Positions 11,761 to 56,168 of a stretch of 64,000 bases of DNA are shown in pieces (the first letter of the stretch is position 1; each line of letters opens with the position of its first letter). A program made the position numbers and the translations under genes. The stretch is from Prosopocoilus inquinatus (Eukaryota > Arthropoda > Insecta > Coleoptera > Lucanidae), in contig CM069871.1 of NCBI GenBank assembly GCA_036172665.1, positions 57,658,713-57,722,712 of the forward strand, read 5' to 3'. The notes under the pieces were generated by a model. The model was not told the origin of the DNA. It worked only from the letters and a program-made list of their open reading frames with translations, and ran no database searches.

Positions 11761-12157
11761 GAAAATTATATTATTCTGTTCGTACAAAAATCGAAACCAT
11801 TTCACTATTGAATAAATGTTCAAAACAAGGTAAGGGATTCTCAACAATAGCACGTAAAATATTATTTCTGATTTTTTTTATGAAATCTGCTCAATACAGT
11901 AACATAACGACAGCGAATGTATCAGAACACTAATAATCATTTCGAATATGTGATAAATAGTACAACTCACACCAATACTATCATATCCACTATTCCTTTT
12001 ACATGTTGCGATAAATCGTCAAATAAAATCATCGAACATATAAACTACAAATTGTATAATTTAGCCAACAAATATGACCATGTCAGTATATTCTGTGTAA
12101 ATAACTTTAGAAAAATTTTGTGCAAATCGTTTTTGATTGCAGTGAGAACCTCGAGCA

Positions 12158-12206
12158 GCCTCTGGACAGCTGTTTCAGCCCTGCTTGGGGCTTCTTCAGC
12201 AGAAAC
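12158..12206 (-). ncRNA. Predicted type I hammerhead ribozyme (inverted monomer)
   Basis: Read on the minus strand, this has the same sequence as the ribozyme at 12813-12861: core CTGAAGA, stem II AGCCC/GGGCT, GAAA, a three-base-pair stem III CAG/CTG, then the cleavable GTC. Stem I GTTTCTG/CAGAGGC closes it and extends outward through GAGC/GCTC. All core bases needed by the hammerhead consensus are present. Activity is not shown. Confidence 0.7.
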
Positions 12207-12506
12207 GTAGCTCGACATTCCCACTGCAGACCAAAAACGACTTGCCCAATTTATTCGCAAATGCGATGTAAGAATGATGAACATATAAAACAGCGACATC
12301 TTACGATCGCTTTTTGACCTGACATTGCAACAGGATCGAAAAATTGAAGCGGATTTGCTCCTAATAAGTCCCCCATGCAAGGCGGCCATGCTTGCTGTCA
12401 AAGCATAATGAAAGTTTTTAAAAAAAATTTGTGCAAATCGTTTTTGATTGCAATTGCGAATAAATTGGACAAGTCGTTTTTGTTTGCAGTGGGAATGTCG
12501 AGCTTC

Positions 12507-12554
12507 GTCTCTGCTGACGAAGCCCCAAGCAGGGCTGAAACAGCTTACAGAGGC
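12507..12554 (+). ncRNA. Hammerhead ribozyme relic lacking its cleavage site
   Basis: Core CTGACGA, stem II AGCCC/GGGCT and GAAA are intact, and stem I (GTCTCTG/CAGAGGC) pairs slightly better than in the sister copies. The segment after GAAA reads CAGCTTA instead of CAGCTGTC. The short stem III and the U-H cleavage site are therefore broken, and this copy should not cleave. Confidence 0.6.
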
Positions 12555-12812
12555 TGCTCGAGGTTTTCACTGCAATCAAAAACGATTTGCACAATTTTTT
12601 TTTTTAACTTTCATTATGCTTTGACAGCAAGCATGACCGCCTTGCATGGACTTATTAGGAGCAAATCCGCTTCAATTTGTCTATCCTACTGCAATGTTAG
12701 GTCAAAAAGCGATAGTAAGATGTCGCTATTTTGTATGTTCATCATTCTTACATCGCATTTGCGAATAAATTGGGCAAGTCGTTTTTGGTCTGCAGTGGGA
12801 ATGTCGAGCTAC

Positions 12813-12861
12813 GTTTCTGCTGAAGAAGCCCCAAGCAGGGCTGAAACAGCTGTCCAGAGGC
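12813..12861 (+). ncRNA. Predicted type I hammerhead ribozyme (direct monomer)
   Basis: Stem I 5' strand GTTTCTG is at 12813-12819, core CTGAAGA at 12820-12826, stem II AGCCC/GGGCT at 12827-12831 and 12838-12842 with loop CAAGCA, and GAAA at 12843-12846. Stem III CAG/CTG is at 12847-12852 with no real loop. T12853 and C12854 supply the U16.1-C17 site, so cleavage is predicted after 12854. Stem I closes with CAGAGGC at 12855-12861 (five Watson-Crick and two G-U pairs). A TAC/T internal loop follows, then an outer stem including GAGC/GCTC and GCAGTG/CACTGC, the usual place for loop-loop tertiary contacts. Confidence 0.75.
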
Positions 12862-13292
12862 TGCTCGAGGTTCTCACTGCAATCAAAAACGATTTGCACA
12901 AAATTTTTCTAAAATCTTTCATTATGCTTTGACAGCAAGCATGGCCGCCTTGCATGGGGGACTCATTAGGAGCAAATCCCGCTTCAATTTGTCTATCCTA
13001 CTGCAATGTTAGGTCAAAAAGCGATAGTAAGATGTCGCTATTTTATATGTGTAAATAACTTTATTACAACTAAAGACTACTCACAAGATGGTATCCACTT
13101 GCGAGCACTAGCAAAAAGATATATCAGTGGTCTCATATTCAATTATATGGACAACGTATGCAGTCAAGTTACAGCCCCTTTAGAGGAATCCGTAAAATCA
13201 ACTACAAATGAATACCCAGAATGTACAAATAAAGACAATTTTTTCAACGTGGCGAAGGAAAGAAGGAACTCCACTTAACAAGCATCGTATCT

Positions 13293-13860
13293 GTGATACA
13301 TCAAAACATCCAATGCCTTGGTAAGAAGATCGAAGAATTAGAAGTTTTTTTAAGTGATATAAACTGTGATATCTAGTGTATTAGTGAACATTGGTATACG
13401 AATGACAATATTAGTTCTTTAAGTTTAAATAATTTTTACGTTGCAAATCACTACAGCAGAAAAATACACCTACACGGTGGCGTTGCTATTTTGGCGAAAA
13501 ACCACGTAGAGGGTAATAACATTGATGCTATAAGACATTTATTTACTGAGTTGCATTTTGAATGTGCAGCAACTAAATTTGTTATTGAAAATACTAACTT
13601 GATCGTTCTAGCTGTATATAGAAGTCCAAACGGTAATTTTGATATTTTTTTAAATAAATTGAATCAAGCTTTACAAATTGCAAGCAAATCTGATAATGAC
13701 TATATTATAATGTGCGGTGATTTTAACATAAATATTTTAGAAGCATCCCCCCATTAAACAAATATAAAGATTTGTTACGCTCGTATGACACTCTATGCAC
13801 AATTGGTGATCCTACTAGAGGTAAAAACTGTCTGGACAATATTTGTACTTCATATCCGGT
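13293..13860 (+). pseudogene. ORF2 endonuclease domain of the CR1-group element, copy 1
   Basis: The translated frame begins near HQNIQCLGKKIEELEVFL, with CISEHWY (catalytic Glu block), then LAVYRSPNGN, and IIMCGDFNINIL (the GDFN block) followed by DPTRGKNCLDNI. These are the conserved blocks of APE-type endonucleases of non-LTR elements, which nick target DNA. A TAG stop lies in the CDI-CISEHW segment and a frame change follows the GDFN block. The domain runs directly into RT sequence near 13862 without the usual linker, so about 0.7-0.8 kb has been lost compared with copy 2. Confidence 0.75.
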
Positions 13861-13861
13861 A

Positions 13862-14926
13862 GAATTACCCCTTTGACTGCAATAATAAATAATTCATTTT
13901 CTCAGGGTATTTTTCCAGATAAATTAAAAATGGCAGAAATTAAACCTTTGCATAAAAAAGATTCTAAAGAATTAATCGAAAATTATCGACCCATATCTTT
14001 ATTAAGCTGCTTTTCAAAAATAATAGAGAAAATTGTAAAATTAATGCGCTTCCTGGACAAACATAACTTACTGAATAAAACTCAGTTCGGTTTCCGAAAA
14101 GGTCTCTCCACCACAACGGCTATTTTAAAATTCCTAAATGAATTATATGTCAATTTAGATAAAGGCAACACATGTTTGGGCTTATTTCTAGACCTTAGTA
14201 AGGCTTTTGACATTGTACATCATCAAATATTACTCAATAAACTGTACACATACGGTATAAGAGGTTTAGCATTAGAATGGTTCAGGAGTTATTTAAAGAT
14301 AGGAAACATTATGTTGCATTAAACAGAACTAAATCGAATGTATTAACTATAAATCGAGGTATTCCTCAAGGTTCTGTCCTCGGACCACTTTTGTATATTT
14401 TGTATGTGAATGACTTTCCATTAAGTGACGCCGTGATTTTTGCACAAATAGTATTCAAGCAACAGCAAAAGCAAATTCAAATTTGCTTCTCACTGAAGAC
14501 TATTATTTGGAAAATGAATTAGTCTTAAATACAAAAAAATCGGTTTATATAAATTTCTCTGTATTACGAAACTTAGACCACAGTTTACTGATTCGTTACA
14601 ATAAAAACAGTATAGCGCGAGTTGAGCAGGCTAAATTCCTAGGTATTGTTATTGACACTAAATGTAAATGGTTTCAACACGTTGACATGCTATGCAATAA
14701 ACTAGCGCCATTATGCTATACATTAAAACATCTAAAAAGATCTGTAAATCCGTTTATACTAAGACCATACTACTTTTCTAACTTTCATTCAGTGCTGTCA
14801 TACGGCATTTTAGCTTGGGGTTTAGGAAGGGATGTCGAACGAATTTTTCTCCTGCAAAAACGAGCGTTGCGTTTTATGGAAGGAGTAAACTGTAAAACAC
14901 GCTGTCGTAATTTATTTAGAAAGTAG
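13862..14926 (+). pseudogene. ORF2 reverse transcriptase of the CR1-group element, copy 1
   Basis: Visible RT blocks are IKPLHKKD and NYRPISLLSCFSKIIEKIV, then TQFGFRKGLSTTTAI, LFLDLSKAFDIVHH (first catalytic Asp), GIPQGSVLGPLLYILYVNDF, KFLGIVIDTKCKW, and QKRALRFMEGV near the C-terminus. Reverse transcription of element RNA at the nicked target would be its role. At least two frame changes (about 14310 and 14450-14500) break it. The F/Y-A-D-D catalytic box is absent: VIFA at about 14440 runs straight into sequence that in copy 2 lies after FADDTSLF. A C-terminal remainder continues out of frame to about 15238. Confidence 0.85.
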
Positions 14927-23949: not shown

Positions 23950-24830
23950 TTTTTTTAAGTATGCAGCCAAAAGAAGAGAAGCGTTTTGATTGAATCATCA
24001 AGTGGACAGAAAGGCAGCATCTTCTTCTCTCCACTAGATAGTCGAATCTGATCAAGACTTGACTTTTTCGTAGTAAAAGAAATTCTCGATATTGTTAGAG
24101 ATGAACGTGTTTCCAGCGTTGCCCTTAATATGCCACGAATATCTTTTGTAAGAAAGCAGTTAAAAAAGAGAAGGGTTTTGATTCAATCATCAAGTAAATA
24201 GAAAAGCAGCATCCTCTTCTCTCCACTAGATGATCGCAACTGCTCAAGACTTGACTGCTTTGTTGTAAAAGAAATTCTTGATACTGTGTGAGATGAACGT
24301 GTTTACAGCGTTGCCCTCAATATGCCACGAATATCTTTTGTAAGAAAGCAGTTAAAAAAGAGAAGGGTTTTGTTTCAATCATCAAGTAAATAGAAAAGCA
24401 GCATCCTCTTCTTTCCGCTAGATGATCGCAACTGTTCAAGACTTGACTGCTTTGTTGTAAAAGAAATTCTTGATACTGTGAGAGATGAACGTGTTTCCAG
24501 CGTTGCCCTCAATATGTAAAGAATATCTTTTGTAAGAAAGCAGTTAAAAAAGAGAAGGGTTTTGATTCAATCATCAAGTGAATAGAAAAGCAGCATCCTC
24601 TTCTCTCCACTAGATGATTGAATTTGCTCAAGACTTAACTGCTTTGTTATAAAAGAAATTCTTGATATTGTGAGAGATGAACGTGTCTCCAATGATGCCC
24701 TTAAAATGCCAAGGATATCATTTGTAATAAAACAACAAAAGCAGAAAGTTTTGAGTCATCGTATTCAAGTGGAGAGAAAGGATACTTACTGCTGGTCATT
24801 AATCAAAGTATGCGTCAAAATGCGTTTAAA
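23950..24830 (+). repeat. 192-bp tandem repeat, about 4.5 units
   Basis: The anchor AAGACTTGACT (AAGACTTAACT in the last unit) occurs at 24054, 24246, 24438 and 24630, exactly 192 bp apart each time. A more divergent unit precedes the first anchor. The middle units are very similar and the last diverges after about 24690. Every unit except the last retains TTTTGTAAGAAAG, a good splice-donor match. It follows an open segment reading KEILDTVRDERVSSVALNMP or close variants, then RISF. The period is a multiple of three. Whether this is an amplified exon or a non-coding satellite cannot be decided here. Confidence 0.8.
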
Positions 24831-54893: not shown

Positions 54894-56168
54894 CGCGGGC
54901 TGCTGGAAAATTTTCTGGAACCTAGTAGGTCTAGAATTGAATATTTGAAAAATTTGACGTTTTTCGCCTATAATTCTATTGACAGTTCCTATCCAAGTGA
55001 ACTAGTTTTGTTAGTACAGCATTTGAGAAAAAGTAATTTTGTGTAAACATGGAAATCTCGCGTGAAAATTTTCGTGCCCTGATTTTTTACGATTGCAAAT
55101 GTGGTCTAACGCCGAAACAATGCCTCGATCGGCTTCATTTGGCTTTTGGAGATGAAGCACCATCAGAGAGCAGTGTTTATAATTGGTTTACCGAATTCCA
55201 GCGTGGACGTATCTCTCTCAGTGACGAATTTCGTGAAGGTCGTCCATCAACATCTGTTGTTGCCACTAATGTAGATGCTGTGCCTGAAATGCTTGAGCGA
55301 GATCGACATGTGACATACCGTGAGATTCAAGCATCTTTGCGCATTGACATGAAAGTAATACACCGGATTTTGCATGATCATTTGAACGTACGAAAGCTTT
55401 GCAGTCATTGGATCCCACATAATTTAACAGAAGCGCAAAAGCAGGGTCCTATCAAATGGTGCGAAGAAATGCTCAAGAAATTCAATGTAGGTCGTTCAAA
55501 TTTAGTTTATAACATCGTTACTGGTGACTAAACGTGGATCTACTCGTACGAGCCAGAAAGTAAACAACAATCTACCGTTTGGGGTATTTGAAAATGAACC
55601 AAAACCAACAAAAGTTGTCCGTTCACGCAGTGCTGCGAAGCAAATGATTGCTTACTTCTTTGGTTTAACTGGACATGTAGTAACCGTGGCTTTAGAGGAT
55701 CGAAACACCGTGAATGCTGATTGGTATACTACAATTTGTTTGCCGGAAGTCATCGATCAAATAAGAAGAAACAATCGAAATCGACGAATTATTCTCCATC
55801 ATGACAACGCCAGCTCGCACTCAGCCCATCAAACAGTTGATTTTTTGTCCAACAAAAATGTTGAATTAATGACTCATTGTCCATATTCACCTGATTTATC
55901 ACCTAATGATTTCTTTTTGTTCCCAAATATCAAAAATAAAATGCGTGGTGAGCGATTTTCGTCGGCTGAAGCAGCGGTTGAAACATTCCGGACACTGGTT
56001 TCTGAGGTACCATCTTTAGAGTGGAAAACGTGCTTTAGAAATTGGTTCGAGCGTATGCAAAAGTGTATTGACGTCAAAGGCAAATATTTCGAAAAACAAT
56101 GATACCGTTTACCAAATTTCATATGCGTTTTTTCATACCGTTTCCAGAAACTTTTCCAGCAGCCCACG
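54894..56168 (+). mobile_element. mariner transposon, full length, 1275 bp
   Basis: Ends CGCGGGCTGCTGGAAAATTT and CGTGGGCTGCTGGAAAAGTT (opposite strands), then TCTGGAA on both, are flanked by TA (54892-54893, 56169-56170 region GTAG). Size and layout match a standard mariner with one intronless transposase gene. Confidence 0.88.
55049..56102 (+). pseudogene. mariner transposase (DD34D), one stop and one frameshift
   Basis: The start ATG at 55049 reads MEISRENFRALIFYDCKCGL, the first helix-turn-helix, then the second with HVTYREIQASLRIDMKVIHR and the WIPHNLTEAQK motif (mariner WVPHEL). NLVYNIVTGD holds the first catalytic Asp and is followed by a TAA at 55529-55531, where mariners have Glu. 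TWIYSYEPESKQQSTVW continues, then a frameshift near 55577. After that come ILHHDNASSHSA (second Asp) and YSPDLSPNDFFLF (third Asp). Thirty-four residues separate the last two Asp, hence DD34D. It ends KYFEKQ. The protein would cut and paste the element at TA. Confidence 0.93.

Follow-up and report, generated by a model that had tools for sequence, protein, structure and literature searches.

A 938-bp insert in the genome of the beetle Prosopocoilus inquinatus, located in a 64,000-nucleotide stretch of DNA that we call the window, is best explained as a member of an abundant and recently active family of metazoan non-LTR retrozymes that was copied into a LINE. We have little doubt that the insert is a metazoan retrozyme, and the family to which it belongs is new, with an insertion anatomy that we did not find described for retrozymes. 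The 938 bp consist of two arms that read outward from an internal inversion, and this inverted arm is the most informative feature of the insertion. It probably reflects insertion by the machinery of Penelope-like elements (PLEs), which are present in the same genome.

The insert occupies positions 12110-13047 of the window and, in agreement with an earlier note on this DNA, is bordered by a perfect 16-bp direct repeat, a target-site duplication with copies at 12094-12109 and 13048-13063 (plus strand). The same note described an insert made of monomers of about 306 bp. The monomers are there, with the two direct copies (12447-13050) spaced by 306-312 bp, but the first unit (12106-12452) is inverted, as 12106-12371 pairs with 12648-12913 at 97%, and this had gone unreported. 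The inverted first unit rules out a plain tandem array. As reference monomer, positions 1-312, we use window 12739-13050, the complete 312-bp outer lap of the right arm (plus strand), whose final three bases coincide with the right target duplication. Inward of it lies the right inner lap (12453-12738, plus strand, monomer about 14 to 312), with 92% identity and a BLAST match that begins at 12447. On the minus strand, the left arm comprises an outer lap (12110-12280, monomer about 175 to 1), identical at 175/175 positions to the matching part of 12739-12913 in a BLAST match that starts at 12106, inside the target duplication, and an inner lap (12281-12452, monomer 312 to 140) with about 93% identity to the reference monomer.

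Removing the insert and one repeat copy restores a LINE frame of 138 aa across the junction. In this empty-site translation, the 5' part of the interrupted frame, including the left target duplication, is at 11908-12109 and the 3' part at 13064-13275, both on the plus strand and upstream of the LINE reverse transcriptase frame (RVT_1) at 13843-14322. The view that a retrozyme was copied into the genome, already put forward in the earlier note, is supported by the target duplications, the restored empty site and the variable inner ends described below. A reverse transcriptase and GIY-YIG frame is absent from the 938 bp; the insert behaves like a PLE insertion but is not itself a PLE. The 185-aa frame at 12375-12932 was rejected as coding, as it is broken by indels between copies. 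Elsewhere in the window, a 192-bp tandem array of 4.1 copies, negative for the hammerhead descriptor, spans 23951-24731, and two adjoining frames at 55049-56102, a Mos1-type HTH and a DDE_3, make up a mariner-like transposon.

The type I hammerhead is complete in two of the three units of the insert. CTGANGA, a 5-bp stem II, GAAA, CAGCTG and, in two copies, GTC with a 7-bp stem I had been claimed from the sequence, and we found these elements at 12820 on the plus strand and at 12199 on the minus strand, with no third place reported by the hammerhead descriptor over the whole window. From stem I to stem I, the intact hammerhead of the right arm extends over 12813-12861 (plus strand, predicted cut after 12854) and that of the left arm over 12158-12206 (minus strand, predicted cut between 12165 and 12164). 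The middle unit, in the right inner lap, carries a hammerhead that sequence comparison identifies as decayed (12507-12554, plus strand): its CTGACGA is at 12514-12520, one base is missing at stem III and the GTC cleavage triplet, and it has no Rfam hammerhead match. With a strict descriptor (stem II of at least 5, stem I of at least 6, stem III segment of at most 8 nt), two places were observed in the whole window on both strands against none in 200 dinucleotide shuffles; with a loose descriptor, the window again gave two, against 20 in 200 shuffles. The two intact motifs exceed chance.

The type I covariance model, with which the earlier note had proposed to check the motif, matches at the predicted place (RF00163, 12814-12860, 23.8 bits and E 3.6e-4 over 91 nt), with CUGANGA, GAAA and GUC in register, although this score is below the gathering score of 34. 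At the gathering score, Rfam has no match in the window, and the whole-window scan at E<=10 contained no hammerhead. When 1.2 kb was scanned, Hammerhead_HH9 was the only hammerhead (14.5 bits, E 3.4, over 12145-12215 in the left arm); the miRNA, sRNA and snoRNA matches of that scan are hairpin matches below gathering. The hammerhead is not the most stable fold: when imposed as a constraint, it reaches -32.0 kcal/mol against -38.0 kcal/mol for the best fold, a difference of 6 kcal/mol, and the best fold pairs part of CUGA with stem III bases. Because CAGCTG is self-complementary, it is possible that the retrozyme acts as a dimeric hammerhead, a form described for newts and axolotl in the available parts of PMC6155905 and PMC7229834. 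We would expect the RNA to cleave itself at the predicted hammerhead sites.

Beyond stem I, where the earlier note had an outer helix, pairing extends along a rod-like hairpin (12770-12901, plus strand, by inverted-repeat pairing) with the hammerhead at its tip. Changed pairs were kept in 69 of 125 cells in the rod versus 24 of 92 in the second domain (Fisher p 3e-5, the cells not being independent), and the rod pairs 58-138 and 61-135 have changes on both sides. With those 24 of 92 kept changes, pairing within the second domain (monomer 186-301) is unsupported. The hammerhead core is intact in 111 of the 123 genomic copies that span it. Its variability (2.1%) is no lower than elsewhere in the monomer (2.0% in the rod, 1.4% in the second domain and 2.6% in the linker), and therefore selection on the core is not visible among the sampled copies.

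The monomer has many other copies in the 650-Mb host genome, for which the earlier note had suggested looking; with the covariance match, two of the three results that the note named as refuting did not come about. A search returned at least 55 matches, several with 100% identity along some 300 bp, and a monomer 23-mer with up to two mismatches matched 16,960 times (8406 forward, 8554 reverse), against 0 for the control pattern read backwards. Viral contigs contained no exact match to a 25-mer, and prokaryote contigs contained 10 matches to an 18-mer, near the approximately 7-8 estimated by chance. It could be argued that the insert is ordinary satellite DNA with a hammerhead-like hairpin that arose by chance, as its monomers are in tandem and its Rfam score is weak. 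This is hardly credible, because the dispersed insertions with target duplications and the restored reading frame already contradict it and the strict descriptor never occurred in the 200 shuffles.

The genome also contains more distant relatives. Genome-wide, RF00163 had at least 8 matches among 74 scored of 83,220 candidates, 7 of them over the cut-off and the window copy not among the 8, and it had none in 14 control genomes. We inspected six of the seven over-cut-off relatives (L120-L125); CTGANGA and GAAA are in place in all six and a cleavable NUH triplet in five, the remaining one (L122) having GTG. These hammerhead-bearing sequences match stretches of 40-216 nt of the monomer with 62-86% identity, and L121 differs from the window copy by changes on both sides of two stem II pairs (A-U to G-C and C-G to U-A, read by eye). 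Since such divergent sequences carry hammerheads over the Rfam cut-off, the host holds several retrozyme families. Among the contigs of this assembly, C1, C2 and C3 begin with CCCAA repeats, that is, TTGGG telomeres (L091-L093), which the parts available of PMC8233369 and PMC12564400 report in beetles and a green lacewing and which suggest an insect such as these as host; the far end of C1, the sole other contig end inspected, is not CCCAA/TTGGG.

The anatomy of the insertion recurs across the sampled loci. The sample comprised 26 places from the first search, 22 from the first matches on contig C1 (2 of them empty with the first script) and 20 further regions chosen partly for matches lying in pairs or runs; the first-search sample (L011-L040) is biased toward copies close to that of the window. 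The joint table contains 77 clusters and 184 pieces and corresponds to L011-L090 minus 14 loci and minus L017, which was refetched as L087. The 14 are 4 overlapping loci of the 30 in the first-search set (L034, L035, L038, L039) and 10 of the 50 loci analysed later (L042, L043, L044, L050, L051, L054, L059, L061, L062 and L070), which overlapped or were refetched as L088/L089. Both ends could be scored in 37 clusters; the other 40 of the 77 include cases in which the script divided one insertion (L058, L065, L077, L079, L087), and clusters below 100 bp were dropped, which leaves L067 outside the 37.

In all 38 clusters with both orientations the minus pieces come first, that is, the arms read outward. 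L047 and L076 have an extra minus piece later, which in L076 is an 85% match resembling a hairpin cross-match. Taking the left end of the minus pieces and the right end of the plus pieces, 34 of the 37 scored clusters end near monomer 176 (170-192) on one side and near 312 on the other; the exceptions are L047 (175 and 176), L071 (302 and 312) and L088 (184 and 220). With a cruder script, L066 seemed to have two ends at 312 and no duplication, and L055 and L057 were single plus arms ending at 177. Perfect target duplications of at least 11 bp flank 31 of 34 insertions (range 11-16 bp, 17 of them 12 bp, 83% AT), against 1 in 398 for mispaired flanks. An apparent preference for duplications starting with TG(C) in the first sample was an artefact of query selection and was not seen in the second. 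Both outer ends fall in weakly paired linkers, one on each side of the rod.

The arms reach up to five laps, and their lengths and inner junctions vary. Only 2 of 76 inner ends lie within 3 nt of the hammerhead cut (1.7 expected), so the templates do not look cut at the hammerhead site, and the idea of templates ending there is unsupported. Inner ends are skewed to low monomer positions (KS p 1e-4), a lean that the start at 176 may by itself explain. L016 and L020 share the same 12-bp target duplication and flanks that are 92% alike, with different lap numbers and copies close to the young monomer; they count as one site rather than independent ones, and represent either two independent insertions at one repeat site or a later rearrangement. 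L018 and L019 have flanks more than 99% alike, and L019 lacks the inverted arm of L018, probably through a deletion in the palindrome following a recent duplication.

These observations bear on what kind of element this is. A non-autonomous DNA element, either a MITE or a foldback element in which the hammerhead is incidental, would account for a long hairpin, target duplications and a high copy number. We consider it very improbable, because the outer ends differ in sequence and are not mutual inverted repeats, which already contradicts it, arm lengths and inner junctions vary, and divergent relatives that score over the Rfam cut-off also have the hammerhead core. The LINEs of the host could also have mobilised the retrozyme, and twin priming would then have produced the inversion. 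The insert sits in a LINE, the host has LINE reverse transcriptases, and both target duplications of the order of 11-16 bp and 5' inversion occur in LINEs; as in twin priming, one part of the insert is inverted between target duplications. The 15-bp duplications of Nematostella repeats were likened to those of LINEs by the authors (PMC4918200, in the part available). Mobilisation by LINEs is nevertheless unlikely. Here the inversion is systematic, with two fixed start sites, one of each, in 34 of 37 scored insertions, and the PLEs of the host share exactly these features. A SINE-like element moved by a LINE would have a single 3' end in common with its partner LINE, and the insertions here have two fixed outer ends.

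The host genome is rich in such elements. GIY-YIG (PF01541) had 2232 first-look candidates, and all 150 that were scored are over the cut-off; five of the scored matches sit in open frames of 788 aa. Among the matches listed, neighbours less than 10 kb apart are arranged minus-plus in 47 of 48 cases. One of these elements, L099, is a PLE insertion whose two arms read outward and show no difference along 1847 bp. It has RVT_1 and GIY-YIG in a frame of 788 aa and is flanked by a perfect 12-bp duplication; one of its arms is 41 nt longer than the other, and this excess is the tail. Ten further pairs, the first read of the 47 minus-plus pairs, all have a tail at one end only and perfect 11-15 bp duplications, counted without a mispaired control; their shorter ends lie at 158-164 in eight and at 167-168 in two, on a scale where that of L099 is 159. 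Thus, the outward arms, the longer and shorter end and the duplication length are common to retrozyme and PLE in one genome. The terminal repeat of L099 reads CTGAAGA...GAAA-TACGTA-TT and looks hammerhead-like; as Rfam gave no match on this PLE end, its hammerhead is one read by eye only. Near position 2138 of L097, a hammerhead-like motif lies by another GIY-YIG match, with a sequence unlike the L099 type; this is perhaps a second PLE family.

The signature agrees with what is known of PLEs. The available parts of PMC11167929, PMC3846280 and PMC8969392 describe outward arms or inverted terminal repeats, one longer end, an AT-rich target and a target duplication, the tail being optional in the latter two, and the self-complementary stem III is shared with the hammerhead that we read by eye in the host PLE. 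Unlike PLEs, the insert has no reverse transcriptase or endonuclease frame, and its two start sites are 136 nt apart, versus 41 nt in the host PLE. Moreover, the monomer and the host PLE end do not align significantly (365 of 500 shuffles score as high) and share one 8-mer (as do 74 of 2000 shuffles), so that homology between them is unsupported.

Which template was used can be judged from the divergence between laps, computed without monomer positions 160-186. Pieces differ by 1.44% within an arm (184/12,738) and by 1.30% across arms (153/11,728), against 3.33% between insertions, and in 38 of 47 insertions the pieces are closer to one another than to those of other insertions. L084 has seven pieces, of which six are mutually identical and the innermost differs at 4/104 positions, while the insertion is 5.4% from the others. 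This low divergence within insertions indicates that both arms and all their laps were usually copied from one template sequence, as would be the case for a circle. In the reading that we favour, the RNA of the retrozyme would be circular, for which the homogeneity within insertions is only indirect evidence.

The insertion in the window is an exception and a mosaic, with 5.0% divergence within and 3.9% between, a pattern for which a single circle does not account. Its outer laps agree across the arms (0 differences in 159 positions; 175/175 by BLAST), whereas the remaining pairs differ by 5.4-7.8%, as if, after the first lap, synthesis had moved to other RNA molecules; gene conversion between the arms could also have produced this pattern. 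The halves of its inverted arm differ in divergence (Fisher p 0.015). In both arms, the switch from the identical outer lap to the divergent inner lap is at or near monomer 312/1 (12281 and 12739), which is one of the start sites, and may be a trace of template jumping. Over the insertions compared, the divergence of the outer laps across arms was below that of other pairs in 15, above it in 4 and equal to it in 3, which is not significant (Wilcoxon p 0.17).

It is possible, though we hold it to be the less probable course, that the PLE machinery acted on a linear multimer or on several RNAs joined by template jumps, with the inversion arising by self-priming and no circle involved. The mosaic insertion in the window and the 9 of 47 insertions in which divergence within is not lower than between speak for it. 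Hammerhead cleavage was dispensable for PLE insertion in vitro (PMC11167929, in the part available), and self-priming is the reading offered for PLEs in the available part of PMC3846280. However, most of the insertions examined share one sequence over all laps and both arms, as in the seven pieces of L084, and right arms of one or two laps alone would not have been able to template five-lap arms such as that of L087/L017.

What was observed directly in this genome is how the insertions are built, their target duplications, the number of copies and the presence of PLEs with the same signature. Taken as a whole, we think it likely that a circle made by the hammerheads, a cut made by the PLE and priming on both 3' ends gave rise to the two outward arms. 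A transcript would be cut by the type I hammerheads, and ligation would then close it to a circle of about 312 nt. A Penelope-like protein, with its GIY-YIG endonuclease and reverse transcriptase, would perform the insertion by making cuts about 12 nt apart on the two strands of AT-rich DNA. At each side of the break, the 3' end would serve as primer for reverse transcription within the retrozyme RNA, from near monomer 176 on one side and from near 312 on the other. The two cDNAs would run for part of a lap to several laps, stop variably and be joined, leaving outward arms with two fixed outer ends. According to the available part of PMC11167929, a purified PLE cuts the two DNA strands and extends each of them, prefers AT-rich DNA and begins reverse transcription at two adjacent internal sites of the RNA that correspond to the genomic tail, with no start-site difference between strands in vitro.

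Compared with metazoan non-LTR retrozymes as presented in the available part of PMC7229834, the family shares a type I hammerhead, a monomer within 170-400 nt, short multi-copy arrays, a GC content below 50%, the lack of its own coding frame, target duplications of more than 4 bp and a predicted self-paired RNA. It differs from them in having two arms that read outward and end at two fixed positions; neither 'inverted' nor 'head-to-head' is used in that paper, and we found no description of head-to-head retrozyme arms in the open-licence literature of PubMed Central, although one may exist elsewhere. Similarly, the satellite retrozymes of newt and axolotl (PMC7229834, PMC6155905, in the parts available) have a monomer of about 300 bp, a type I hammerhead and a very short, self-complementary stem III, and differ in sequence and host.

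As to what mobilises animal retrozymes, PLEs were called 'a strong candidate' in 2020 (PMC7229834), retrozymes were said in 2022 to be elements that 'may rely on' PLEs (PMC8969392), and in the available parts of the papers mobilisation by PLEs is proposed rather than demonstrated (PMC7229834, PMC7761336, PMC8969392). Because the insertions described here themselves show the PLE signature, and abundant PLEs with long open frames are found in the same genome, one protein and one RNA would now be enough for a direct test. In addition, the one-of-each rule for the outer ends also constrains the mechanism of PLEs themselves. A stricter reading, which we hold to be slightly less likely than not, is that animal retrozymes parasitise PLEs and that a single PLE complex would cut the two strands about 12 nt from each other and prime from both 3' ends, at two defined sites, on a single RNA circle. 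If this is true, each DNA end would be committed to a different site, and every insertion would be a record of two-ended rolling reverse transcription of a circle made by a ribozyme.
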